Assembly: GCF_025602895.1 (NCBI RefSeq)
Contig: NW_026516217.1
Span: 558,001-622,000 of the forward strand
Reading direction: 5' to 3'
Length of the DNA: 64,000 bases
DNA from: Polychytrium aggregatum
Taxonomy: Eukaryota; Chytridiomycota; Chytridiomycetes; Polychytriales
Below are positions 1-60,659 of this stretch, piece after piece. The notes below the pieces were generated by a model. It had not been told where the DNA came from. It worked only from the letters and a program-made list of their open reading frames with translations, and did not search any database. The stretch's first letter is position 1. The number at the start of each line of letters is the position of its first letter. Position numbers and translations under genes: made by a program.

Positions 1-1219
1 TGGCCAGCAAGGCTTGATGGGCCAGAGTCAGAGCAAGTGGGAAAGGGCGAACAAGCCGACGAGAAAGACGGGCTGGCGGAAAGGAGGGAAGGGAGAGAGA
101 TCAGAAGCAGCAACGTTGCTTCGCCAGATGCTCTGGTCGCATGACGATAACTCAAAAGCTGCAGATAAGGCGATCTGGGCCACCGTCCCCTGCCTGGGTT
201 CTGGGGAGGATGTAGTTGTGAGCAGTGCAGGATTCCCCCACAACAAGCGCGACCGTGGAGACGAAGGACGAGGAGCTGCTCACAGCCATGGCTCTTGCCT
301 GTCTTGCTGGAACTGCTGGCCCGTGCGTGATATGGTTCTTTGGACCGGCTATCGCTGTCTCGTGAGGCGAACGGATGCAAGGATCAAGGCAAAAGGAAAG
401 GAAAAGCCTGAAACTCGGGCGATGGCGTATGATTCGCCGACAGACAGGACAGGAACCGCAGCTCTTGGTCGGAGCCGAGGCAAGCAGTCTCGATTCATGC
501 ACACTTGTCTGCCGACTGCATTGTCGACTGCATTGCCGACCGACGCAATCAACGCAACGATAGAGCAATGCCGATGCGGGCAACACAGCTGTCGACCATA
601 ATCTCGGGCCGCCTTCGATTGTGCCCTTGCTTGATGATGGTGGGATTGTTCCCCAGCGGTGTCTGGGTCGTGTCTGCGCCGTGTCTGCTGCATGTCAGCG
701 GCGCCATGGAATAGGACATGACACGGATGACGGCGACTGGACGGCGGCAACATGTCGGATGCTCCATGGCGACGGCATCCATGGGCCCAAGCCATGCGCG
801 TCCGCATGGATCCTCATGAGCCCGGACACAGACACACACAGGCGCACACCTCCTTCCCAAAGGATCCCAAAGGATCCCAAGCGACATCGGTGCTCATAAC
901 AGTTCTATTCGTATTATGTGAAGCCAAGTATTTACATGCATTGGAGGGGCAAAGCAACGACGGGCGGCTTGCGCAGAGAACAGAGGGAGCCAGCGGGCCA
1001 CAGGCACCGGCGGCGGGAAAGGAGAAGGGAGACCCCCGTCTGGGAGAGATCCCCGAGCAAATATAGATACAAAAGAATCAAAAGGCGCGTCGCGGCGCAA
1101 GAAAGGGCGAGAAAGGGTGGGAGAAGGGGTGGTGCGGGGCGGAACAGAGGCCGGCCGCGGAGCAGACAGGAGAACCAGTTGTCGAGGAGACGAGGACGAG
1201 GAATGGCTTTTCTCATCCT
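1..1219. other. Intergenic, no gene recognised
   Basis: Several overlapping open frames exist on both strands, but none shows a recognisable domain or consistent exon structure. The right part is purine-rich and is probably the 3' untranslated region and terminator of the PAS-domain gene that ends at 1220. A short direct repeat of the type ggatcccaaa occurs near 860-880. Confidence 0.5.
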
Positions 1220-2542
1220 TCAAGGCTTGCACATCATCGGGAGGAAGTTGCCGACCATCAGCGCCGGACGATCAAAGAGATCGCGCTTGATGGTGACGCA
1301 GTACGCGCATGGCAGGGGCTGGCCGTCGGGACGGAGCAGGATGCAGCGACCCGAGACGGGCGAGTCGGCCGAGGCGCCGAGCTGGGCGTTCTTGGAGAAC
1401 ATTTCCCAGTAGTCGATGCACGACTTGCCGTCCATGATCTCGGTGATCAGCATGTTGTTGTGCTGCGAGGGCGGCACCGATGCGACGGGGGCCTTGTTCG
1501 GGGTCATTCCCAGGATGAGGGCAGAGGCCGACCAGCCCGTCAGCTCGGTGAACTCCTCGCCGACCATGACGATCTCACCGGCGGTTCGCCAGATGACGGT
1601 CGGAGTGCCGGTCAGGAAGAGTAGGTTCTCGTAGTCCTTGAGGGTGCGCTGGATGCATTGCTCGGCAAGAATCAGATCCTGCACCGACAGCGGAGCCTGG
1701 CGGGCCATGGACGAGGGCCGGAACTGGGCCAGAGCGTAGAACAGGCGCGCCTGCTCCCACTTGCCGAGGCGACGACGGGCGAACGAGACCAGGCGGTGGA
1801 AACCGATCTGCTCGTCGTAGGGCGCGAGGACGCCTGAGGCAGCGGTGGCATCGACAATAGGCTTGTCGGCAGCGGCCAGGGTCGAGAGCATGGCAGAAGA
1901 AGGAGTTGTCGGCGGGGAATAGGGGAGAGCAGGCGCCGACAGGATTGGGGATGCAGGGCGGAAGGCCAGATCGATAGGCAGGGTCGTGGGGAGCGTCGCG
2001 GCCAGCGACGTGGGCAGGGTCGTCGAGAGCGAGGCTGGCAGGGTGGTAGGAAGCGCGGAAGGCAGGGTGACGGCGATGGTGGCTGGAAGCGCCGAGACCA
2101 GCGAGGCAGGTAGCGACGTTGGCAGCGAAGGCGCCAGGGAGGCCGGGAGCGCCGAGGCCAGCGAGGTGGGTGCCCGGAGGCTCGCGCTTGGAGCCGAGGT
2201 GACGGCGACGGGGAAGGAAGCGTCCATCGGAGGCGACGAAAAGATCAGCGACCGGAGCTCATGGAAGCCGCCGGCGAGAGTGGGATCGTGTGCCGAGGGC
2301 GACTGGGCGGGGGAGGTGGTGTCGGCGACCAGCTCGAGGTCGCCGAGGCCGAACTGGGCCAGCGAATAGTCAATCAGATCATGGCCAGGGTTGGCGTAGA
2401 TGCTTGGATCTTCTGGCATCGACGAGAACATGGAGGCAGGCTTGGCAGGGGTTCCCGAGAAGGCAGAGTAGCCCCAGAGGGAGCGATGGAGATCGTCGAC
2501 ATTGGAGGTATCGAGGGTGCGGACCATGGCGCAGGAGAACAA
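1220..2542 (-). CDS. PAS-domain protein resembling the ERT1/GSM1 C-terminus
   Basis: This is a single open frame of 440 residues. Residues about 308-435 form a PAS-like domain: TPTVIWRTAGEIVMVGEEF is followed by LTGW and a closing MVGNFLPM strand. The pattern matches the PAS domain at the C-terminus of fungal gluconeogenesis regulators of the ERT1/RDS2 (AcuK) family. The Zn2Cys6 DNA-binding domain of that family is absent from this frame; it may lie in an unseen upstream exon or be truly missing. Residues 127-190 are a degenerate LPxSLP repeat and the rest of the N-terminal half is Ser/Pro/Ala-rich, probably disordered. The frame starts at Met1; Met7 is an alternative. The upstream region (2580-2850) is strongly pyrimidine-rich on the coding strand. 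A role in sensing or transcription is inferred from the domain only. Confidence 0.7.
   Translation of the reverse strand: MFSCAMVRTLDTSNVDDLHRSLWGYSAFSGTPAKPASMFSSMPEDPSIYANPGHDLIDYSLAQFGLGDLELVADTTSPAQSPSAHDPTLAGGFHELRSLIFSSPPMDASFPVAVTSAPSASLRAPTSLASALPASLAPSLPTSLPASLVSALPATIAVTLPSALPTTLPASLSTTLPTSLAATLPTTLPIDLAFRPASPILSAPALPYSPPTTPSSAMLSTLAAADKPIVDATAASGVLAPYDEQIGFHRLVSFARRRLGKWEQARLFYALAQFRPSSMARQAPLSVQDLILAEQCIQRTLKDYENLLFLTGTPTVIWRTAGEIVMVGEEFTELTGWSASALILGMTPNKAPVASVPPSQHNNMLITEIMDGKSCIDYWEMFSKNAQLGASADSPVSGRCILLRPDGQPLPCAYCVTIKRDLFDRPALMVGNFLPMMCKP
1972..2164 (-). repeat. Coding tandem repeat (LPxSLP type)
   Basis: The repeat encodes residues about 127-190 of the PAS-domain protein. 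Degenerate 12- to 24-nt units encode runs such as LPTSLPASL and LPTTLPASL. The periodicity is visible in both DNA and protein, which suggests growth by slippage. Confidence 0.7.
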
Positions 2543-4537
2543 GTGTGGGGAAGGCGGAGAATGAAATTCAGAGGGCTTGAACAGCGGAGGGGCTTGGGGG
2601 GGGTCGACAGTCGGAGCGAGACCAAAGGCAAAGGCGGGAAGGAGCCGGCAGGGACGGACGGACGGAAGATCCGAAAAAAAGATGAGAAGCGGCTCAGAGA
2701 GACAGAGAGACGGTATAGAGCATCAAGCGGCCTGGGTGTGTTCGAGCGAGGCAGAGATGGGCTGCTCCTGGGAGAGAGAGAAGGCGAGAGCGAAAGCGAG
2801 AGTGAACGAACGAGCGAACAAACGAAAGACACCGAAGCGAAATGAAATGGGTTGATGCAGTCACCTATGGCAGCGAGGCGGGAGAGCGCAGACTATTTAA
2901 AAGGCGGCGTCTTTCCCATTTCGCTCCCCGGCCAGAGCAAGGCGCTGGGGGAGGGCTCGTTCATGGGGCTCGTTGTGCCCTTGTTGGACAGCGATTTGTT
3001 TTCCGCCTTGCCCAGGCCGGTGGAGCGGCGCGTTGCTCCGAGTCTGCTGCTGTTTGCAGCGGGAGTGGCTGGCGCTGTTGCTGTGGATCTGTCCAGGCAG
3101 GCACAGTTGCGCTTGATGCTGCAGACACAGTTGCTGGGCTGGAGCCCGCAAACCCAAGGCGGCCGGACGCGCATGTCTGCTGCCGGCACAATGGGCGGCC
3201 GCACAATGCCACACTTTCACCCCGCGTCTCCACCAATCAGGGCCGCCCCAACAGACACAGCTCGCGCACATCCGCGCAGCGTCTCGCACAGCGCCCTCGC
3301 CGTGCTCTCTGGCACAGAGCTCGCACGCGATTGGACCTCGCCTGCGCCTCACCTGTGACGCGTACCGAACGCAAAAGCAAGGCAGGGACAAATGAAGCAG
3401 CACATACATGGATACAGAGCAAGATCCCCCTTGTGGGGGGTGCCTCCCGGCCGCAGCGAGCGCCGCCCCTTGGCTCGCTGTGCGCCGGCCCTTCGCGGTG
3501 CTCTGCAAGGGCAGGACAGCCCCCCCCAGCAGTCTCTGTCGCGGATGAGCTGCAGAGTTCTGTTACTCAAGGCCCGCCGCCACCCACAGAAGCAGCAGCA
3601 GCGCAGCAAGGCAGACACAGTCGCTGTCGCTGCCACAACAGACACACACTGCGGCCGTCCCGCGTCGTCGCACAGAGTTTGCATCCGCTGGTCACCTGGC
3701 GCGGGCTGGTGTCGGTGGCGGCGGTGACGTCACCGCCCCGTGCTGCCAGGCCTCCCCCAGAGCGCCGCTTATGGGAATGCGGGTGCGCCCCGTGCGACGC
3801 CTGCGCTGCCAGCCCAGAGCCTGCGTCCTTGCCGCGCGCCCCACATCGCCGCCCAGCTGCGCATTGCTCCGATCCCGCACGCTGACGCGCCGGAACGACA
3901 CGCCGCCTGACCAGACGGCGCTCGGCGGCACACAGCCATTGGCCAGAAATGAGCTGGCGGGTCCCGAATCTGGCGCCACCGGCCGCACCAATCGCTGGGC
4001 GCCAGATGCGCACGTTCGAGCCAGCCAGCCAGCCAGCCAGCCGACGCACTCGATCCAGGGTCGAGCCAGCGCAAGCAACAGCGAGCGCCGACACGGCCTG
4101 GCAAGACGAGAAGCGGGTGGAGCTGACGACAGCAGCGGCTTTCCGGCGACGACATCGCAGACGGACGGACGGGGGACGGCAGTTGACTCGGCGGCAGAGT
4201 TGCATATCAGAGCGGCAGGCTTCGGCGCCAGGCGGCCCGATCGCCCAAACCGCGACAGAGACGGCCGGCCGCCGTCCCATATTTATAACCGCCTCGCCCG
4301 ACCGTCTATCTCTGTGCGACGCCCGGGGCGAGATAGGCAACGGCAGATACGGCAGGCGCGGCTGCGCAGCAGCTTATCTCCGCCCGGCTGGCCGCGGGAT
4401 CGCACCCGCCGCCCGTGCGTCCCCGGCGCGCACCCACACTGCCCTGAGTGAGTGTGCGCCTGGTGTGCCTGTTCCTCGTCGCACCAGGCCTGGCCGGCTG
4501 GTTGGCTGGGGCGCGGGTGGGAACGCGGTCTGATTCC

Positions 4538-16511: not shown

Positions 16512-16929
16512 TACAGTCAATCCAGAAGGAAATGGGACAGTCCTTCTCTGGCGTCAGATGTCTGAAGCCTGCCGAATATCCGTTGGTCCCGGCGAGCAAG
16601 CCGTGCGATTGTTTCCCGTCCTGGTTGGCAATCTCTTTGTTTTGGTTGGTTTGGGAAGCGTACTCTTGAATACACTCGGTCGATCCTCTGTGGCGACGAT
16701 CGACTGGCATTGATGTCTCGATCCAGGAGGGTGGTGCATCCACTGGATCCAGGAGGGTAGTGCATTCACTCGACACTCTAGACTGCTCTGCTTTTTCGAG
16801 TCGCTTGACTTCCCGGCGCTGCGAGCACACTGTTTGGCCATGGGAACGACGGCTGTGTGTGTATTCAGGTTCCAGAGCAAAACAACTGTCCTGGTTCAAA
16901 CGGGGTGTCCTGTTTCCGAATTGGCTGTA
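16512..16929 (-). mobile_element. Internally deleted Fanzor-family element (about 418 bp)
   Basis: The left end begins TACAGTCAATCCAGAAGG and continues to GGGACAGTCC. This matches the terminal repeat of the Fanzor element ending at 60353, read in reverse. The next 200 bp match the 3' end of that Fanzor gene and its flank, including the tgaatacac..gtcgatc..gatcgactggcat order. The right end (about 16905-16929), read in reverse, is TACAGCCAATTCGGAAACAGG followed by ACACC, which resembles the right terminal repeats of the intact element. The middle of the Fanzor gene and the whole transposase are missing. The right-hand TA is shared with the intact transposon that follows, so the latter inserted exactly at this element's end. 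Confidence 0.7.
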
Positions 16930-16954
16930 CACTTTATTCAGAAAAAACGGGACA
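16928..16954 (+). repeat. Left terminal inverted repeat, copy 1
   Basis: It starts TACACTTTATTCAG and ends AAACGGGACA. It matches the reverse complement of the right end at the outer TACA and the inner AAAAAACGGGACA. Confidence 0.85.
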
Positions 16955-17090
16955 ATATAGCCGTTTCCATGAACATGCAGTATGTGCTGTGCTTGCGTCA
17001 AGCAAAGCCACAAGAAATAAAACAGATCACTTTGGCAGCCTCCGAGTGAAGACCACCGGTCGCTCTCCGGTCTCCACAATCGACCTGCAT
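16930..17090 (-). ncRNA. Putative omega (guide) RNA scaffold region of the Fanzor gene
   Basis: This is an inferred feature. In TnpB and Fanzor loci the guide-RNA scaffold overlaps the 3' end of the nuclease gene and runs to the transposon end; the guide itself is read from the flanking host DNA. Here about 100 bp between the Fanzor stop and the transposon end is almost identical in copies 1 and 2, although the reading frames of copy 2 have decayed. The minus strand holds a 6-bp stem with a 3-nt loop (tgcttg-acg-caagca, about 16990-17004); copy 2 has one substitution in it. The exact RNA ends cannot be seen. Confidence 0.35.
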
Positions 17091-19399
17091 ACTGTGATCA
17101 TGTTGCGCGCCGCATTGACGTCGCGATTCCACACTGTCCGGCAGCTGGGATTCTTGCAGCTCCTGACAAAGTGGGAATTCGCAACACTGGGCGCATCGAG
17201 TCCTTCCAACCGAACTGGCTCCAGGCACTTGGAGCACACTTGCGAGGTGTTGAACTCGTTCGTCGAGACTACCTTGACGCTTCCATGATGGTGATTGGGC
17301 CGGCGTCGGTGGTGCTCGAATTGCTCAAAGTACCGAGCGAACCGCTGCCTCCGAGGGCTGGATGCATAGCCCTTGCCTTGCCGCCATGATGCATTGCCAA
17401 AGGCGATCACCACATCGGTCCGTATCGGGGCGTGCCTCAGGACGGCCTTGCACATCCTGTCGACGGCCACTTGGCGTCTCTTGTGGCCCGTGAAGCGATG
17501 GTGACGGGCCTTCTTGCCAAGGTGGAAGTCGAGCTGCCCTCGCAGCTCCGGTCGCAGGACATGGGTGAGATGGACCTTGAAAGCCTCCGAGGACGACACC
17601 TTGGGCGAGGGAGTGGTCGACATCCAGGTCTCGATGCTGAGTCGATACTTCATGGTGTTGTGCCACCTGGTGTCGGACGTATGGCCACACATGTGCTGGT
17701 AGTGGCCATTGGAGAATGAGACCACCTCGTCTTGGTGGCCCGGTGCTTGGATGACCGCCGTGAAGATGGAGCCGACTCCAGGATCGATGCCAATCCAAGT
17801 GGACTTGTCGGGGTCTGGGTCGCCGATGTGGGCCTGGATACGCTGCTCGGCGGTCGGAGGAGGCTCGGAGGTCTCGGTGCGATCGGTTCGACGCACAAAC
17901 TTGACGAGGCCGATGGTGCATCCAATGCCATCGGTGCTGATCTCGTAGTTGAACAGTTTGTGATTGATATCCCGGTCACGGAAGAGGGAACTACGCAGCT
18001 TGAAGCAACTGCGCCAGAGACGATCCTGGTTGTTGACACCGTCATCGCCTTCTTCCTTGAGCTTGTCCCTGGTGAGTCCAAGGCGCTTCTTTGGACCCAG
18101 GAGCTCCCAGAGAGTGACCGTGTCAATCTTGACATACTTGGCCCTTGCAGTGCATAGAGGAACCATCGTGCACACGGCCGGAGGAGTGTCAAGAGCGAGC
18201 TGCTTGAGAGCCCAGTTGAGTCTGGCGGCCAGCTTGTTGATCTTGGCCTTGGTGGTGCCGAGCTCAGACTTGGCCGTGGTGAACCTCTTGTCGTCGGAGG
18301 GAATGCCTTGGGTAGTGAGCTCGTCCAGCTTGGCCTGGCGCTGCAGCTCGGAGACTCGGAGGGCGGGCATGTCACAGTCGATCCACTTGTGGACATTGTC
18401 GACCATCTTGTCCCGGGCAAGGATCCCCACATGGTGTGAGAGGCGATGGAGGGCCCGGAAGCGGTCCTGGTCGCTGCTGTACCGAAACTCGTCCAGGACG
18501 TGGCCAAAGTCGGGATAGAGGAACTCGATATCGGCCTTGGGTGGAGTCTGCCCTGGTTTCTCGAAGAGCTCGAGACAGGCCTCGATGGCTTCGTGCTTGT
18601 GCTTGTTGGCTGGGAAGACGGCAGCGCAGAAGCGGCGAAGGAGTCGCCAGTAGGCCAGGTCGAGGTGGGTGGTGCAGTTGGTAGCATGGGCATTGACAGC
18701 CAGTGTGAGAAGCTGACTGCGAGCACCATCAGGCAGACGAGGGGCCGGAGGTAGGTCTGCGTGCCGAGTGGTCTGGTAGTCGCGAAAGGAAGCGACCAGA
18801 TGCTCGTTGTATTTCTCAATGTCCCTGGCTGTCAAGAGAGCACCAGCCTGGACGATCCTGAAGCATTGGCGAACGAAAGCAGGTGTGGACTTGGAGATGA
18901 CGGGGACGGGAAGATCCTGCTCGATGCACCGGAGGATGTGCAGGTTGAGCAGCCTGGATGCCTCGAACTGGATCTGGGTCATGGCCTCGACGGTGGCCTG
19001 GATCTTGTCGCGGAGAGCGGGATTGAGACAACAGCCATCCATCGTCTGCTTGAAGCAGCTGAACTGAGGGGCGGATGACCTTCCATCCACGAGTGGGACG
19101 ACAGAACTCTTGAGGGGGTGATATTTTGGACACTTGTTGGTGTTGCAACGTTCGTGATCGGTGCCATCGCACTGGCGACATCGCTTGCCGGTACTCGAGG
19201 AAGTAGATGGACCAGGCTCGGTGGGATCGACATCCATTGGATCTGCAGAAGCAGTGGTGGTGAGCGACGGAGCAACAGACGACCAAGCATGCGTGGGATC
19301 AGAATACGAACCAGAGACAGGCTCCGACTGTGACTTGGCTTTCTTGGGCCTGGGTGGCCGAGGCTGGCCATCACCGGTACCCTTACGCTTCGGAGGCAT
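17027..19399 (-). CDS. Fanzor RNA-guided DNA endonuclease (eukaryotic TnpB homologue), intact
   Basis: A single open frame of 790 residues without introns. The N-terminus is basic (MPPKRKGTG.., KKAK near 19-22: a likely nuclear-localisation signal). A Cys cluster CRQC..CNTNKC (residues 74-90) may bind zinc. The C-terminal half carries the split RuvC nuclease: RuvC-I WIGIDPGVGS with Asp539; the strand VVIAFGNASW (663-672), where bacterial TnpB has its RuvC-II Glu but no acid is present; Glu715 in STNEFNTSQ just before the zinc ribbon CSKC..CKNPSC (722, 725, 748, 753); and RuvC-III NRDVNAARN with Asp760. Relocation of the catalytic Glu next to the zinc ribbon is a described Fanzor trait. The protein should cut DNA matching a guide RNA encoded at the transposon end. 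It is transcribed in the same direction as, and downstream of, the transposase. It is the only intact Fanzor gene here. Confidence 0.93.
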   Translation of the reverse strand: MPPKRKGTGDGQPRPPRPKKAKSQSEPVSGSYSDPTHAWSSVAPSLTTTASADPMDVDPTEPGPSTSSSTGKRCRQCDGTDHERCNTNKCPKYHPLKSSVVPLVDGRSSAPQFSCFKQTMDGCCLNPALRDKIQATVEAMTQIQFEASRLLNLHILRCIEQDLPVPVISKSTPAFVRQCFRIVQAGALLTARDIEKYNEHLVASFRDYQTTRHADLPPAPRLPDGARSQLLTLAVNAHATNCTTHLDLAYWRLLRRFCAAVFPANKHKHEAIEACLELFEKPGQTPPKADIEFLYPDFGHVLDEFRYSSDQDRFRALHRLSHHVGILARDKMVDNVHKWIDCDMPALRVSELQRQAKLDELTTQGIPSDDKRFTTAKSELGTTKAKINKLAARLNWALKQLALDTPPAVCTMVPLCTARAKYVKIDTVTLWELLGPKKRLGLTRDKLKEEGDDGVNNQDRLWRSCFKLRSSLFRDRDINHKLFNYEISTDGIGCTIGLVKFVRRTDRTETSEPPPTAEQRIQAHIGDPDPDKSTWIGIDPGVGSIFTAVIQAPGHQDEVVSFSNGHYQHMCGHTSDTRWHNTMKYRLSIETWMSTTPSPKVSSSEAFKVHLTHVLRPELRGQLDFHLGKKARHHRFTGHKRRQVAVDRMCKAVLRHAPIRTDVVIAFGNASWRQGKGYASSPRRQRFARYFEQFEHHRRRPNHHHGSVKVVSTNEFNTSQVCSKCLEPVRLEGLDAPSVANSHFVRSCKNPSCRTVWNRDVNAARNMITVCRSIVETGERPVVFTRRLPK

Positions 19400-19645
19400 G
19401 GGGGCAGAGGATGCTGGATGCCTGCCAGTGGTACTGGTCAGAGCAGAGACTTTTTTTTATCGTGCAATAGCGCGATGATCAGATCAAGGCGAGATGAGGG
19501 AAGAAAGCAGCAGGACGAAGGTGTGGCATTTATACCCGAGAGCAGGAACCCGTCTTTGCGGGCTGGTTGGGGAAGTGACCCTGTTCAAAAATCGTCGAGA
19601 GGTTCAAGCCAGGGATTTGAGCGTGAAAATGGCGGCGTGATTGGG

Positions 19646-19705
19646 GAACTCAACCCCAAATCGGTGGGGACTCAACCCCAAATCGGTGGGGACTCAATCC
19701 CAAAG
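19646..19705. repeat. 22-bp tandem repeat at the end of the transposase gene
   Basis: About two and a half units of ctcaaccccaaatcggtggg with two further bases. The repeat starts inside the end of the transposase frame. Copy 2 has a similar but diverged array at about 46590-46650, so the array belongs to the element. Confidence 0.8.
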
Positions 19706-20477
19706 AAGTTCTCGATGGGATTGAAGTCGGGCGAGGCAGGTGGGGTGAAGATCACTGACCATCCTCGGCGATCGATGCAGTCCAGGACAGCCATTGTCTT
19801 GTGCATCTGACATTGTCCATCACAATCACAGAGCCATCTGGGAAGGTCGCTCGCTCAAAGAACTCGACTATCGAGTGTGTCTTGAATGATGTGGGGATGT
19901 ACATGCGATGCAGCACACCAGAGTGGTTGATGGCAAATGCAGCCGAGACAGACTTGTGTTTCATGTGATTGCGCTGACGGAGTGGGACGCCCTTCGGCGA
20001 GTATCCGTAGAGCGGAAAGGTGGTTCGTCTGATCCCCGTCTCATCGACAAAAACGAATCGCCGCGGGTCGATGGAGCGGGCCTGGTCCCTGAACTGTGCC
20101 ACTCGCTCATCCAGTCGCTTGGACTTGTAGAGGTGTGTTGCCCTCTTGTGTGAGAGACCTGCTCGGTGGATGGCAGTGTGGCAGAGTGAGAGTGATACTT
20201 TCCTCTGGAGGATGGACTCGAGCTTGCATCGCAACACAGGACCAGCCTGGAACGGATCCTGTTCAATCAGGGTGCGGATGACTGGACATGCCTGCTCGAA
20301 GAAAGTGGATCTGCGAGCTGTGACTCGGGATGGGTCATCCAGCTTGCATCCTCGGTGCCATCGATGGATGGTGCTCTTGGATACACTGAATATGGAGGCG
20401 ACCTTACGCAGGCTATGGATGAGATCGTAGCATCGCAATGCGGCGGTGCGAAAGTCGGATGTGTGGCGAATGGTCAT
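19672..20477 (-). pseudogene. Tc1/mariner-IS630 transposase, frameshifted before the last catalytic residue
   Basis: The protein starts MTIRHTSDF with a helix-turn-helix (SLRKVASIFSVSKSTIHRWH). It continues with the first catalytic Asp in FVFVDETG and the second in VIVMDN. A single base missing at about 19806-19808, relative to copy 2, shifts the frame after VMDNV, and translation ends at 19752. In the shifted frame the rest is still there: GWSVIFTPPASPDFNPIENF with the final Glu, followed by a stop inside the 22-bp repeat. In copy 2 the spacing from the second Asp to the Glu is 34 residues (DD34E), the Tc1/IS630 pattern. The protein ends just after NPIENFFG, shorter than typical family members, which continue with a C-terminal helix region. 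Lies upstream of the Fanzor gene on the same strand. Confidence 0.88.
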
Positions 20478-20535
20478 GGCCAGCGCGCGATAACATTGGG
20501 TAACAAAATATTCGATGAACGGTCAAAAACCCGGG

Positions 20536-20563
20536 TGTCCCGTTTTTTATTGGATTGCCTGTA
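20536..20563 (-). repeat. Right terminal inverted repeat, copy 1
   Basis: On the + strand it reads TGTCCCGTTTTTTATTGG and then ATTGCCTGTA. It is the inverted partner of the left end and is conserved in copy 2 at 47239-47266. Confidence 0.85.
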
Positions 20564-20570
20564 ATGCAGA

Positions 20571-43090: not shown

Positions 43091-43976
43091 GATATGTCAA
43101 GGAGCGAGTGGCTGCCATCGAGGCAGTCACCAAAGCCTGCCGCCTGTGTGAAAGAGTCTTTCGTCAACTGGTGACGTCTGAGACCATCATCAAGAAGGAC
43201 AAGTCCCCCGTCACCGGTAAGGAGCCACATGGGCTGTGGATCTGCGGACGGTGAATGTCGCCGATGCTGCTGCTTGCATCGGCAGTCGAGGCTCGACAGG
43301 GCTCGTTTTTTGTTTCTTCCTGTTTGTGCTGCCGACGCAGGAGCGCTCACAACGGCCGTTGCATTTGCCAGTCGCCGATTTCGGTGCCCAGAGCGTCGTC
43401 AACGCTATTCTGCTGCGACACTTTCCCGGCGATCGCATCGTTGGAGAAGAAGACTCGAAAGATCTCCGAGACAGCCCAGCCACTCTCCAGAGGGTCCTGG
43501 AGCTTGCCAACTCGGTGCTGGAGCCTGGATTCCCATCTGGCGACGAGGTATGTGGTCCAAGCGATCTCTTGGTTGGGGGCATGTCTTTCGGATACCTGAT
43601 TCTGGCTGCCTGTCACTCTCAGCTTTGCGATGTGATCGACCAAGGAAACTTTGAGGGCGGTGGATCTGGGCGGTTCTGGACACTCGACCCGATCGGTAGG
43701 CCAGCTCTCCCCTGCACCGGCTCGCTTCCAGATTGTCCAGCAGGCCCGCGATCGTGTGGCGGCCCGGCGGCAGCATTTTGACCACCGAGGTGGCATGGTC
43801 CCTCAGATGGTACCAAGGGCTTCCTGCGAGGAGAGCAGTTCGCCGTCTGCCTTGCGCTCGTTGAAGACGGTCGCGTTACACTTTATTCAGAAAAAAACGG
43901 GACAATATAGCCGTTTCCATGAACATGTAGTATGTGCTGTGCTTGCGTCTAGCAAAGCCACAAGAAATAAAACAGA

Positions 43977-46342
43977 TCACTTTGGCAGCCTCCGAGTGAA
44001 GACCGCCGGTCGCTCTCCGATCTCCACAATCGACCTGCATACTGTGATCATGTTGCGCGCCGCATTGACGTCGCGATTCCACACTGTCCGGCAGCTGGGA
44101 TTCTTGCAGCTCCTGACAAAGTGGGAATTCGCAACACTGGGCGCATCGAGTCCTTCCAACCGAACTGGCTCCAGGCACTTGGAGCACACCAGCGAGGTGT
44201 TGAACTCGTTCGTCGAGGCCACCTTGACGCTTCCATGATGGTGATTGGGACGGCGTCGGTGGTGCTCGAATTGCTCAAAGTACTGAGCAAATCGCTGCCT
44301 CCGAGGGCTGGATGCATAGCCCTTGCCTTGACGCCATGATGCATTGCAAAGGCGATCACCACATCCTTCTCCCTCGGGGCGTGCTTCAGGACGGCCTTGC
44401 ACATCCTGTCGACGGCCACTTGGCGCCTCTTGTGGCCCGTGAAGCGATGGTGACGGGCCTTCTTGCCAAGGTGGAAGTCGAGCTGCACTCGCAGCTCCGG
44501 TCGCAGGACATGGGTGAGATGGATCTTGAAGGCCTCCGAGGACGACACCTTGGGCGAGGGGGTGGTCGACATCCAGGTCTCGATGCTGAGCTGCTTCTTC
44601 TTGGTATTGTGCCACTTAGTATCGGACCTGTGGCCACACATGTGCTGATAGTGGCCATTGGAGAATGAGACCACCTCGTCTTGGTGGCCCGGTGCTTGGA
44701 TGACCGCCGTGAAGATGGAGCCGACTCCAGGATCGATGCCAATCCAAGTGGTGCGATCGGGGTTTGGGTCGCCGATGTGTGCCTGGATACGCTGTTCGGC
44801 AGTCGGAGGAGGCTCGATGGTCTCGGTGTGATCGGTTCGAGGCAGAAACTTGACGAGACCGATGGTGCATCCAATTCCATCGGTACTGATCTCGTAGTTG
44901 AACAGTTTGTGATTGATATCCCGGTCACGGAAGAGGGAACTACGCAGCTTGAAGCAACTGCGCCAGAGACGATCCTGGTTGTTGATACCGTCCTCACCTT
45001 GTTCCTTGAGCATGTCCCTGGTGAGTCCAAGGCGTTTCTTTGGACCCAGGAGTTCCCAGAGAGTGACCGTGTCGATCTTGACATACTTGGCCTTGGTGGT
45101 GCATAGAGGAACCATCGTGCACACGGCCGGAGGAGTGTCGAGAGCGAGCTACTTGAGAGCCCACTTGAGCCTGGATGCCAGCTTGTTGATCTTGGACTTG
45201 GTGGTGCCGAGCTCAGACTTGGCCGTGGTGAACCTCTTGTCGTCGGAGGGAATGCCTTGGGTAGTGAGCTTGTCCAGCTTGGCCTGGCGCTGCAGCTCGG
45301 TGACTCGGAGGGCGGGCATGTCACAGTCGATCCACTTGTGGACATTGTCGACCATCTTGTCTCGGGCGAGGATCCCCACATGGTGTGAGAGGCGATGGAG
45401 GGCCCGGAAGCGGTCCTGGTCGTTGCTGTACCGAAACTCGTCCAGGACGTGGCCAAAGTCGGGATAGAGGAACTCGATATCGGCCTTGGGTGGAGTCTGC
45501 CCTGGTTTCTCGAAGAGCTCGAGACAGGCCTCGATGGCTTCGTGCTTGTGCTTGTTGGCTGGGAAGACGGCAGCGCAGAAGCGGCGAAGGAGTCTCCAGT
45601 AGGCCAGGTTGAGGTGGGTGGTGCAGTTGGTGGCATAGGCATTGACAGCCAGTGTGAGAAGCTGACTGTGAGCACCATCAGGCAGACAAGGGGCCGGAGG
45701 CAGGTCTGCGTGCCGAGTGGTCTGGTAGTCGCGAAAGGAAGCGACCAGATGCTCGTTGTATTTCTCATTGTCCCCGGTCGGGGAGAGGGCACCGTCCTGG
45801 ACGATCTTGAAGCATTGGCGGATGAATGCAGGGGTGGACTTGGAGATGACGGGGACGGGAAGATCCTGCTCGATGCACCGGAGGATGTGCAGGTTGAGCA
45901 GCCTGGATGCCTCGAACTGGATCTGGGTCATGGCCTCGACGGTGGCCTGGATCTTGTCGCGGAGAGCGGGATTGAGACAACAGCCATCCATCGTCTGCTT
46001 GAAGCAGCTGAACTGAGGGGCCGATGACCTTCCATCCACGAGTGGGACGACAGAACTCTTGAGGGGCCGGTATTTGGGACATTTGCTGGTGTTGCAACGT
46101 TCGTGATCGGTGCCATCGCACTGGCGACATCGCTTGATGGGGCCGGACGAGGGACCAGGCTCGGTGGGATCGACATCCATTGGATCTGTAGAAGCAGTGG
46201 TGGTGAGCGACGGAGCAACAGACGACCAAGCATGCGTGGGATCAGAATACGAACCAGAGACAGGCTCCGACTGTGACTTGGCTTTCTTGGGCCTGGGTGG
46301 CCGAGGCTGGCCATCACCGGCACCCTTGCGCTTCGGAGGCAT
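43977..46342 (-). pseudogene. Fanzor nuclease pseudogene, copy 2
   Basis: It is collinear with the intact 790-residue protein of copy 1. Relative to it, the glutamine codon after RLKWALK is a stop (CAG to TAG, + strand position about 45148-45150), and a base is missing after VVIAFG.. (about 44349), shifting the frame before the alternative catalytic Glu. The N-terminal part (46342-45149), the middle (45124 leftward, with WIGIDPGVGS) and the C-terminus (NEFNTS, zinc ribbon, NRDVNAARN, ending at 43977) are each readable. The N-terminal cysteine cluster is retained; the serine-rich spacer before it is six residues shorter. It cannot give a full nuclease as written. Confidence 0.92.
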
Positions 46343-46587
46343 GGGGGCAGAGGATGCTGGATGCCTGCCAGTGGTACTGGTCAGAGCAGAGACTTTTTTT
46401 TATCGTACAATAGCGCGATGATCAGATCAAGGCGAGATGAGGGAAGAAAGCAGCAGGAGGAAGGTGTGGCATTTATACCCGAGAGCAGGAACCCGTCTTT
46501 GCGGGTTGGTTGGGAAGCGGCCCTGTTCAAAAATCGCCGAGAGGTTCAAGCCAGGGATTTGAGCGTGAAAATGGCGGCTTGATTGGA

Positions 46588-46650
46588 GGGAACTCAACCC
46601 CAAAATTGATGGGGACTCAACCCCAAAATGATGGGGACTCAACCCCAAAG
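46588..46650. repeat. Tandem repeat in copy 2, counterpart of 19646-19705
   Basis: Units of ctcaaccccaaaa(t)tgatgggga, diverged from the copy-1 units (atcggt replaced by att/tgat). Confidence 0.7.
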
Positions 46651-47180
46651 AAGTTCTCGATGGGATTGAAGTCGGGTGAGGCAGGTGGGGTGAAGATCAC
46701 TGACCATCCTCGGCGCTCGATGCAGTCCAGGACAGCCATTGTCTTGTGCATGCTGACATTGTCCATCACAATCACAGAGTCGTCTGGGAAGCTCGCTCGC
46801 TCAAAGAACTCGACCATCGAGTGTGTCTTGAATGATGTGGGGATGTACATGCGATGCAGCACACCAGAGTGGTTGATGGCAAATGCAGCCGAGACAGACT
46901 TGTGCTTCATGTGATTGCGCTGGCGAAGAGGAGCACCCTTCGGCGAGTATCCGTAGAGCGGAAAGGTGGTTCGTCTGATCCCCGTCTCATCGACAAAAAC
47001 GAATCGCCGCGGGTCGATGGAGCGGGCCTGGTCCCTGAACTGTGCCACTCGCTCATCCAGTCGCTTGGACTTGTAGAGGTGTGTTGCCCTCTTGTGTGAG
47101 AGACCTGCTCGGTGGATGGCAGTGTGGCAGAGTGAGAGTGATACTTTCCTCTGGAGAGTGTTTGTGTGGCGAATGGTCAT
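46617..47180 (-). CDS. Transposase lacking its DNA-binding domain, copy 2
   Basis: An open frame of 187 residues. After MTIRHT the next residues are NTLQRKVS: about 70 residues holding the helix-turn-helix of copy 1 are deleted in frame. The catalytic part is complete: FVFVDETG, VIVMDN and PDFNPIENF, with 34 residues between the second Asp and the Glu. It ends at the 22-bp repeat, as in copy 1. Without the N-terminal domain it is unlikely to bind the terminal repeats. Confidence 0.85.
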   Translation of the reverse strand: MTIRHTNTLQRKVSLSLCHTAIHRAGLSHKRATHLYKSKRLDERVAQFRDQARSIDPRRFVFVDETGIRRTTFPLYGYSPKGAPLRQRNHMKHKSVSAAFAINHSGVLHRMYIPTSFKTHSMVEFFERASFPDDSVIVMDNVSMHKTMAVLDCIERRGWSVIFTPPASPDFNPIENFFGVESPSFWG

Positions 47181-48166
47181 GGCCAGCGTGCGATGGTTTT
47201 GGGTAACAAAATATTCGATGAATGGTCAAAAACCCGGGTGTCCCGTTTTTTATTGGATCGCCCGTAAGGTCGGCGTATTGGGCTGTCCCAATCTCCCGCA
47301 TCGCCTGAACGAACCCGAGAGCGGCCGCGGCAACTTGATGGTGGCCGTCGATGGGCAGGGCGCTTTCCAGGTAAGTTCTCGTTGTTTCTGCGGTTCCCGC
47401 TGAAAATTTCATTCAGGATGCGATCCAATGGAAACTACGGAGGGTGTCGCTGGATCGTATCGATGGTCTGGATGGTCGACTCGCCTCGAGCGATCCTGCT
47501 CACCAAAGCTGCCTCGGCCCGATTATTCCAGAGAGCTTTTGACTCGGACGCCGAAACCCAGATCCAGGTGGCTCGGCTTGCGAGTCCGTCTGATGCCATC
47601 TTCTGCGAGTCGGTCGAGGCCGGTCACTCCTCGCACGGCGACAATGCCAAGATCGCCTCACTTCTGGGCATCCACCGGCCCTCGGTTCGCATGGACAGCC
47701 AGTGCAAGTACGGGGTCGTTGCTCGCGGCGAAGCTGGACTGTATCTGCGGCTTCCTGTCGACGATACTTATGTCGAGAAGATATGGGTACGCTGGATCTC
47801 TGACTGCCTGTTGTTGCCGCTCCCACCGATGCCGCCCCATCCTGTCTCGATCTAGTAGGCTGGTGGTACGTTATTAACTGTAGGTGGACACACGAACGAG
47901 CTAACTGAATGTATTGCTGCTTGGGGGGGGGTAACGACCAGGATCATGCTGCTGGCTCCCTGGTAGTGACCGAGGCTGGCGGCTTTGTATCGGATGCGAA
48001 TGGCCGGCCGCTGGACTTTACGCAGGGCCGATATCTCACCGCAAACAGAGGCATCGTCGCAACTTGTGCCTTTGACGGCCAGCAGAAAAGTCGTATCCAC
48101 TCAACGGTGCTCTCGGCTGTAGCCCAGGCGCTGGACACGTCTGCTCAAGTGCAGGGGGCCGAGTAG

Positions 48167-53468: not shown

Positions 53469-53895
53469 TACAGAAGAAACGGGACAGTCACTTTCTGGCA
53501 TCAGCGACACAAGTCTGCTGATCCATGGGGCTTGGAGACGGATCTGTTTGGTGGCCGTCTCTGGTGGTGTGTGAATTGCTCAAAGTACTTGGCGAACCGG
53601 AGTCTCCGTGGGCTGGATGCATATCCCCTCCCTTGCTTCCAGGAGGCATTCCCAAAGGCAATCACAATATCGGTCTCCCTTGGTGCCTGATCCACGACTC
53701 GCTTGCACATCTTGCTTTCACATCTCGTGACAGTGCCCTTCGCTTGCAGGGAGCCATCTGTGCGAGAAAGCGTCCTTGATTCGGATCCAGAAACACATCA
53801 CTGAACGGTCATGGCCAGCGCACGATGTTTTGAGGCAACAGCATATTTCAGCGACCAAAATCCGTGGTGTCCCGATTTTTGTCGATTGGCTGGCT
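53469..53895 (-). mobile_element. Internally deleted Fanzor element (about 427 bp)
   Basis: The left end is TACAGAAGAAACGGGACAGT. On the minus strand an open fragment (53710-53510) reads MCKRVVDQAPRETDIVIAFG, then NASWKQGRGYASSPRRLRFA, then KYFEQFTHHQRRPPNRSVS, clearly Fanzor and closest to the relic at 59446. The right part keeps the start of the transposase gene and its leader (ggtcatggccagcgcacgat), as in copies 1 and 2, and ends near gtgtcccgatttttgtcg. The 3' end of the Fanzor gene (RuvC-III), its 5' half and nearly all of the transposase are gone. Confidence 0.75.
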
Positions 53896-58865: not shown

Positions 58866-59445
58866 CTGTTCACGCACAGAGACAGCTCTGGTGTCCTCTG
58901 GCCAGGTGCTGGACGCCGAGGGACCTCTGAATCGCAGTTGTCGACCGACGGATGTGCAGAGCGCAGAAGGCAAAAGGCAAAAGGCAGAAGGCAGAAGGCA
59001 GAACACAACACCAGGACAGCACAAGTCGCAGCAAGGCCGTGCTGCGCATGCAAAACTCAACCATCACTATCAATTATTTCCGTCCCCCTCACGGCTGCTC
59101 ATCTCGAATATGAATACACGCTGTAGACCAAGATGCAGCAAAAGTTGGAATCCGGCCATGGTCGGTTGACGGCATTTGGTATCACCTTGAGCCGATTGAC
59201 GGTGATGGTGGGCGATTGGTGTGGAGGAATGACCAATTGTATCATTGTTGGAAGCTCCACTCCGATTGCGGACAAGAACCACCACCATCTGAATCTCTCT
59301 GGTTGGAAACCTAGTCAAGCGTGGTTGTGTGTCAGCGAGATGACATGATCGTTTGGCTATCAGGCAAGACTCACCTTGACAAGATGTCTTCCCACGACTG
59401 ATTGAGCGAGCGATGCGTTTCTGGATCTGAATCAAGGACGCCACT
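58866..59445. other. 5' flank of the ABC1-kinase gene
   Basis: It contains a short tandem repeat gcagaaggcaaaaggc at 58963-59002. The rest, up to the Fanzor relic, shows no gene. The missing 5' part of that relic element is not recognisable here. Confidence 0.5.
58963..59002. repeat. 7-bp tandem repeat (gcagaag/gcaaaag)
   Basis: About five to six units of aaggcag/aaggcaa, upstream of the ABC1-kinase gene. Confidence 0.75.
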
Positions 59446-60353
59446 GTGAACAACAACTCTGCCAGCCCAAAATGCGCTGGTTTTGAGGAGATTCTCTCTT
59501 CCCCAAGAACAGGACTAGCCATCGTCGCTATTTTCTCGCCAGATGGTTCACCGCAAGTGAAAGGCACCACCCAGGCGACCAAGTGGATCCAGAGCACCCA
59601 CAAGATCCTTGGTCTGCAGGAATGGATGAGCACCACACCAAGTCCCAAGATCCCCGGGTTGGCTTCCTTCCTGCGATACATTCGCCATGTGTTCGATGGA
59701 GACATGCTGGACAAACAGCTGTACTTCAGCCTGACCCGGCGACGGCGATTCAAGCGACTCGATCTCCACAGCAAACGACAGCGCACCGTCCACGAGATGT
59801 GCAAGCAAGTCATCGACCAGGCACCAAAGGAGACCGAAGTGGTGATTGCCTTTGGGAATGCATCCTGGAAACAGGGGAAGGGATATGCATCCAGTCCCAG
59901 GAGACTCAGGTTTGCCAAGTACTTTGAGCAATTCCACCATCACCAGAGACGCCCACCAGACCGATCCGTCTCCAAGATCCATGTGTACTCGGTGAACGAG
60001 TTCAACACATCCCAGGTGTGCTCACATTGTCGGGAATTCAAGCGACTTGAGTCACCCGAGTATCTTGATATCGAGAAACCACACTTTGTCCGGAGCTGTG
60101 CAAGCTGCCATACGCTGTGGGGTCGAGACATCAATGCAGCCAGGAACATGATCTCGGTATGCCAGTCGATCATCGCCCATGGAGATCGACCGGGTGTATT
60201 CAAGACTGTGCTCCCGAGACCAACCAAAACAAAGAGATTACCAACGAAGACAGGAGTGCAATGCCATGGCCTACCCGCTGGGCCTACAAGTCAGTCAGCG
60301 GGGTTCAGAAGCCAGAAAGGGGAAGTGTCCCGTTTCTTTCTGGATAGACTGTA
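59446..60353 (+). pseudogene. Fanzor 3' half with its terminal repeat (second subfamily)
   Basis: The open frame runs 302 codons. It aligns with copy 1 from about EWMSTTPSPK onward: RRRFKRLDLHSKRQRTVHEM, VVIAFGNASWKQGKGYASSP, VYSVNEFNTSQVCSHC with the alternative catalytic Glu, the second zinc-ribbon pair CASC, and GRDINAARNM with RuvC-III Asp. Upstream, SSPRTGLAIVAIF stands where the RuvC-I strand (IDPG..) should be, so the first catalytic Asp is missing. The N-terminal half and transposase are absent. The transposon end follows 3' of the gene: tgtcccgtttctttctggat then agactgta (TA at 60352-60353). Protein differences from copy 1 are spread throughout, so this is a distinct lineage; the deleted elements at 16512 and 53469 and the relic at 51070 are closer to this one. 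Confidence 0.85.
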
Positions 60354-60659
60354 AGTATATTGCACTGTTTCTTGTGCATTTCGACAGTGGATGCCGGGTC
60401 GCCCATATTCTGGGCAGTCCACTTCGGGGTTGCCATCACTCTTGGGATGGTCGATGGGAGGTGTTTGACTCCCTTGTGCAAAGTGTGTGTGTGTGACGGC
60501 GAGAGGCTTCTCGCCTTCCCTCGGGGGTCTCTCGCCAGAGACTGCTCTTCTCGCCGACCGAGGTGGCTCCGAGAGCGCGTTTTGTCGTTCTCGCTCATTT
60601 TTTTAACAAGTAATTTTTTCATAGCGCAAGACCTGTCGCTGGATGAAATGGGCGAGCAT

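Follow-up and report, generated by a model that had tools for sequence, protein, structure and literature searches.

A probable RNA-guided Fanzor1 endonuclease carried by a high-copy Tc1/mariner-type transposon of Polychytrium aggregatum

Introduction

Several published features serve to recognize Fanzor proteins. The Fanzor signature combines a DPG motif with an alternative Glu that precedes the zinc finger by six residues (PMC10711439). In solved Fanzors the alternative Glu lies in the loop that joins the fifth strand to the TNB domain (PMC11423790), and a Fanzor pattern has been written as D-X(125,275)-[TS][TS]-X-X-C4 zinc finger-X(5,50)-RD (PMC3627910). The measured target-adjacent motif (TAM) of SpuFz1, CATA, consists of a conserved CA that precedes the left repeat, together with the TA (PMC10432273). 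The role of Fanzors for their transposons is unsettled. Here we describe a Fanzor1 gene and its host transposon in a stretch of 64,000 nucleotides (nt) from the chytrid Polychytrium aggregatum (RefSeq assembly GCF_025602895.1, contig NW_026516217.1, positions 558,001 to 622,000), hereafter the window, in whose numbering coordinates are given. Taken as a whole, the locus is probably best explained as encoding an RNA-guided Fanzor1 endonuclease of a high-copy Tc1/mariner-type transposon, including a proposed guide, TAM and retention mechanism. The sequence-based part of this explanation comprises the reading frame, a RuvC domain with Glu715, a zinc ribbon, a TA-flanked element with a DDE_3 transposase and a one-sided flank; the RNA, guide and cutting steps are proposed.

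The Fanzor1 protein and its active site

17027..19399, minus strand: Fanzor1 open reading frame (ORF), 790 amino acids (aa), uninterrupted from its ATG, no introns needed, with Pfam, profile and structure matches

A preliminary description of this DNA, made from the sequence letters, had proposed a 790-residue Fanzor frame free of introns and lesions, and a single open ATG frame is present as described. Its translation places the RuvC acids at D539 (in D-P-G), E715 and D760, and the zinc-ribbon cysteines at C722, C725, C748 and C753 (spacing CxxC-x22-Cx4C), in agreement with the two Asp residues and the four-Cys ribbon named there. Residues 663-671 read VVIAFGNAS, the acid-free strand that had been pointed out, and the canonical TnpB arrangement, in which the RuvC-II strand bears the catalytic Glu some 50 residues ahead of the zinc finger, is therefore absent. 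E715 stands seven positions before C722 (E715-x6-C722), again as described, and is retained in a second copy of the element (43980-46342) and in a frame of another subfamily, family B (59446-60354). From D539 on, the protein follows the pattern of PMC3627910: T718 S719 Q V C722, the C4, five residues, then R759 D760. The alternative-Glu signature is present as D539-P-G plus E715-x6-C722, both invariant in 13/13 aligned relatives. The Pfam family Cas12f1-like_TNB matches the protein with E=1.7e-9, above the Pfam cut-off.

Could the protein be a canonical TnpB- or Cas12-like enzyme with its RuvC-II acid elsewhere, for example at E692 or E695, and E715 incidental? Both residues do lie between the VVIAFGNAS strand and the zinc ribbon, and NCBIfam guided_TnpB gives a weak match. 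That match reaches 26.7 bits against a cut-off of 100, neither E692 nor E695 is conserved in the relatives P0003 or P0004, and no acid after D539 other than E715 is invariant in the alignment of 13 relatives; E715 also pairs with a catalytic Glu of SpuFz1 (below). We consider this alternative very improbable; the proposal that Glu715 is the only plausible substitute acid is supported by its invariance. D760 is nearly invariant in the same alignment, where P0003 stops before reaching it.

The profile search and structure prediction that the preliminary description had suggested both lead to SpuFz1. A search of the PDB with the single sequence (E<=10) returned no Fanzor. A four-sequence profile matches SpuFz1 (8gkh) with E=1.9e-10, and D539, E715 and D760 pair with SpuFz1 D383, E541 and D606. 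SpuFz1 entries occupy ranks 1-4 in comparisons with the structural model, which is of low confidence and in which a RuvC domain with insertion and TNB and REC helices can be made out. In the model, E715 falls in a loop between the fifth strand (708-712) and the zinc ribbon, and D760 is among the first residues of helix 759-777.

Sequence motifs, SpuFz1 pairing and predicted topology thus bear out the claimed fit to the rearranged active site of Fanzors, and support the reading of the window frame as an intact Fanzor1 in which E715 would serve as the alternative RuvC-II Glu. The relocated Glu is not new. Because published work defines the alternative Glu as a Fanzor signature, it is no anomaly; as described in PMC10711439, it is a general hallmark of Fanzors and no peculiarity of the window protein. 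The protein is likely to be an active nuclease.

Conservation among copies and relatives

The genome searched comprises 64.7 Mb in 418 contigs. At least 57 Fanzor copies, out of 1315 candidates, were scored; they are 94-95% identical to the window copy, and 48/57 are free of stops. The 20 copies fetched (L017-L036) are the best-scoring stop-free ones among the 57 and not a random sample, and the 18 of them that are full-length and of equal length were compared. Each of the 18 retains D539, E715, D760 and the four Cys, and pN/pS among them is 0.29. Because of the many near-identical stop-free copies, this pN/pS and the Pfam match, we regard the frame as real beyond chance.

The copies are 95-98% identical to one another and have the appearance of a recent burst, and 9/57 scored copies already have one stop. 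It is thus conceivable that the protein still binds DNA under RNA guidance while lacking catalytic activity in nature, its copies being intact only through that burst. The pN/pS value, the retention of the three acids and four Cys in every copy compared, and the invariance of E715 in all 13 relatives argue against this, and we judge it improbable.

A whole-protein search of 5.8 billion proteins gave nothing at E<=0.001, its search words coming only from the variable first 500 residues. A search with the RuvC region found 4 proteins and the four-sequence profile 5. Viral contigs gave 36 pattern matches and 0 relatives.

Residues 74-90 of Fanzor1 form a zinc-knuckle-like N-terminal motif, C-x2-C-x4-H-x7-C, which is common to family B and nearly so in P0003; the family-B copy L037 has two repeats of it.

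The Tc1/mariner-type host element

16928..20563, minus strand: whole Tc1/mariner-type element, 3.6 kb, both terminal TAs included; boundaries drawn by comparing 20 fetched copies
20562..20563, minus strand: left TA (target-site duplication), from copy comparison
20536..20561, minus strand: left terminal inverted repeat CAGGCAATCCAATAAAAAACGGGACA, imperfectly matching the right repeat, from copy comparison
19752..20477, minus strand: DDE_3 (Tc1/mariner) transposase frame, 241 aa, broken, from a domain match and copy comparison
16930..16954, minus strand: right terminal inverted repeat TGTCCCGTTTTTTCTGAATAAAGTG, from copy comparison
16928..16929, minus strand: right TA (target-site duplication), from copy comparison
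43876..47267, minus strand: the window's second element copy, 3.39 kb, left end starting TTA
43980-46342, minus strand: Fanzor frame of the second copy, interrupted by one stop and a frame change

The TA duplication, terminal inverted repeats and DDE transposase identify a Tc1/mariner (IS630) element, and the Fanzor is thus carried by a TA-flanked eukaryotic DNA transposon other than IS607, with a DDE_3 transposase. The transposase frame lies upstream of the Fanzor1 gene on the same strand. In the window it diverges from the other copies after residue 225 and is therefore broken; 7/20 fetched copies have transposase frames of 310-331 aa with the full C-terminus. In full-length transposase copies we counted, by eye, 34 residues between the second D and the E, and presumably the label DD34E applies.

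Exact ends of the forms searched occur 207 times (left) and 210 times (right) in the genome, counts inflated by duplication-related copies or haplotigs. Among 100 left ends listed, 67 are paired with a listed right end, giving elements of 3.2-3.8 kb (55), about 1.1 kb (4) and 283-385 bp (8). The last 168-448 nt of the right end are kept in 3/3 short forms read.

The short nonautonomous forms L121, L122 and L123 (1113, 312 and 385 bp) keep both ends and the right-end RNA region, comparable to the Spu-1 ghosts. The right neighbour of the window element (16528-16927) is an old relic of a family-B Fanzor whose start resembles a Tc1-type terminal repeat, and the element seems to be nested beside it.

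The one-sided flank and the predicted TAM

20564..20564, minus strand: T directly 5' of the left TA, predicted part of the TAM 5'-(W)TTA, from left-end counts

A T precedes the left TA in 197/207 exact left ends; in the window, 12.4% of TA dinucleotides are preceded by T. An A follows the right TA in 40/210 exact right ends (19%), slightly above the 12% background (p=0.006) and far below the left-side bias. In a set of 54 distinct left flanks, 38 of which had been pre-selected for TTA, 30 have A and 15 have T at position -2; outside the pre-selected list, T precedes the TA in 16/17 distinct left flanks. The L023 insertion has landed in a family-B element's tail; once joined, its flanks align gap-free to nine unoccupied copies. 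All nine read TTA, and the T before the left TA therefore belongs to the target sequence. Since in SpuFz1 the conserved left flank plus TA equals the measured TAM, we predict by analogy that the TAM of the window Fanzor1 is 5'-(W)TTA.

The same asymmetry would arise if TTA were the transposase's own target preference and Fanzor irrelevant to where copies persist. The terminal repeats differ, and a transposase could in principle read orientation from them; TTA is also seen at very short derivatives from which the nuclease gene is missing. Integration preferences of Tc1/mariner transposases are usually symmetric about the TA, which is difficult to reconcile with a bias so much stronger on the left than on the right, and SpuFz1 shows the same pattern, its conserved flank being the measured TAM. 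A preference of the transposase is therefore rather unlikely, though a more serious alternative than a dead catalyst.

A candidate guide RNA and a proposed mechanism

16928..17029, minus strand: candidate omega (guide) RNA scaffold, 102 nt, from the stop codon to the right TA, two predicted stem-loops, by analogy with SpuFz1
16913..16927, minus strand: predicted 15-nt guide of the window copy, the right flank just after the TA

The 102 nt between the stop codon and the right TA are conserved among copies. By analogy with SpuFz1, an omega RNA would be transcribed from the right end (about 16928-17029); it would stop at the right TA, with the following ~15 nt of host flank serving as the guide. 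Fanzor1 would then cut DNA in which the TAM 5'-(W)TTA is followed by the guide sequence, as it is when the copy's own site is unoccupied or has been vacated. The transposase would move the element, and Fanzor would help the element persist by cutting empty sites, whose repair would draw on an occupied copy. In the genome, the 30-mer at the window guide matches its own site only, within 3 mismatches.

Several observations weigh against the overall explanation. The structural model is poor (mean pLDDT 58, pTM 0.38), and its alignments to the SpuFz1 structures have 17-18 Å root-mean-square deviation over several domains. The broken transposase of the window copy means that transposase is needed in trans, and the end counts are inflated as stated above. 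The candidate RNA folds weakly, with z -1.47 for the 102 nt (11/200 shuffles as good), -2.43 for 133 nt and -0.84 with the guide. Codons 721-790 are lowest in synonymous differences among the copies of the window element's family (A), but codons 1-60 are nearly as low, and a comparison of A with B shows no synonymous constraint at codons 721-790.

Scans of the window gave 0 Rfam matches at gathering scores and 0 tRNAs. Two further ideas were discarded. A guide RNA overlapping the ORF end had been suggested by low synonymous variation at codons 721-790, which was not borne out between A and B. The window guide as a weapon against a related repeat was suggested by its repeat-like flank, but TTA plus the 15 nt has 0 exact genomic matches.

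Pairs of copies at the same site

Five pairs of copies share flanks, and three are comparable (L020/L025, L033/L036 and L124/L125). For L020/L025 and L033/L036, each site being present on two contigs, the flanks differ by 0.1-0.2% and the elements by 1.1% and 3.1%. L124/L125 have 2/441 flank differences, the right flank not being counted separately, versus about 4-5% inside the element. Excess divergence of the element over its flanks is thus found in 3/3 comparable pairs. L126/L127, which hold only an element fragment, show no excess (0/423 flank differences, 1/1512 after the flank), and L018/L080 differ internally in structure. The same-site divergence may reflect ectopic gap repair, gene conversion, RNA-guided replacement or assembly error among near-identical copies.

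A second Fanzor family in CACTA-type elements

59065..60626, plus strand: family-B Fanzor element, shortened internally, with ends of CACTA...TAG type and a Tc1-like right repeat inside
59446-60354, plus strand: family-B Fanzor frame inside it
53519..53713, minus strand: further family-B Fanzor fragment

At least 130 genomic places were scored for family B. Its elements start with CACTATC and end with CATAGTG, and matching 3-bp flanks are found in 9/11 pairs (8/10 distinct sites). CACTA...TAGTG ends are seen in L009-L016, L037 and other fetched ends, and the matching flanks correspond to a 3-bp duplication. Because of these ends and flanks, family B is, on sequence grounds, CACTA-type. Beside the Fanzor gene the elements retain a Tc1-like right repeat, and family B may represent a mariner-borne Fanzor captured by another transposon superfamily (CACTA). 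In L037 (element at ~566-3990) Fanzor is the only long frame inside the ends; an autonomous CACTA partner was not searched for. Four positions ahead of the left end, 20/21 distinct flanks have A or C, and the matching right position is unrestricted, a one-sided signal weaker than that of the mariner-borne family. Among the papers searched, none combined Fanzor with CACTA; the EnSpm matches were left unexamined.

Two Polychytrium proteins, P0001 and P0002, are annotated as host genes, one a male-sterility/AMP-binding protein and the other an F-box protein; the annotation joins them to fragments of family-B Fanzors.

Tentatively, the genome might be read as preserving traces of what Fanzor does in the native host. 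Copies would persist almost only at sites that can be cut once vacated (TTA TAM plus their own guide), and breaks induced by Fanzor or excision at occupied sites would be repaired from other copies, leaving alleles of one site with different copies. Independently, CACTA would have captured a mariner-borne Fanzor and continued to spread it.

Comparison with known systems

The window Fanzor1 is a real, intact protein of a known type in an unusually informative element. TAM-dependent retention is directly testable in this genome, with its hundreds of intact-looking copies of nuclease plus transposase, one-sided insertion signature and unoccupied sites. The analysis yields specific predictions of the TAM and guide of a new nuclease, and adds a second Fanzor family in a CACTA-type element.

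Spu-1 of Spizellomyces punctatus, which encodes SpuFz1, is similar in that a chytrid Fanzor1 occupies one ORF between TA-flanked inverted repeats, with DPx, alternative Glu, C4 and RD, conserved bases upstream of the left repeat, and short ghost derivatives (PMC10432273). Spu-1 is described there with no transposase between the repeats, whereas the window element carries one; with upstream CA and TAM CATA, compared with upstream T and predicted TAM (W)TTA here; and with 42 Fz loci, 19 full-length, compared with 207 exact left ends for the family of the window element. Over the region that aligns, SpuFz1 resembles the window Fanzor1 only remotely. The Ealt TnpBs, or pro-Fanzors, share DPG and a Glu six residues before the zinc finger but are prokaryotic with a zinc finger CxxCx(12,18)CxxC (PMC10711439), unlike the CxxC-x22-Cx4C of the window Fanzor1. 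The PGv-1 and PUl-1 Mariner elements likewise combine transposase and Fanzor1 in one TA-flanked Tc1/mariner element; PGv-1 is described as single-copy and viral (PMC3627910), whereas the window element has, by end counts, hundreds of copies in a fungal genome.
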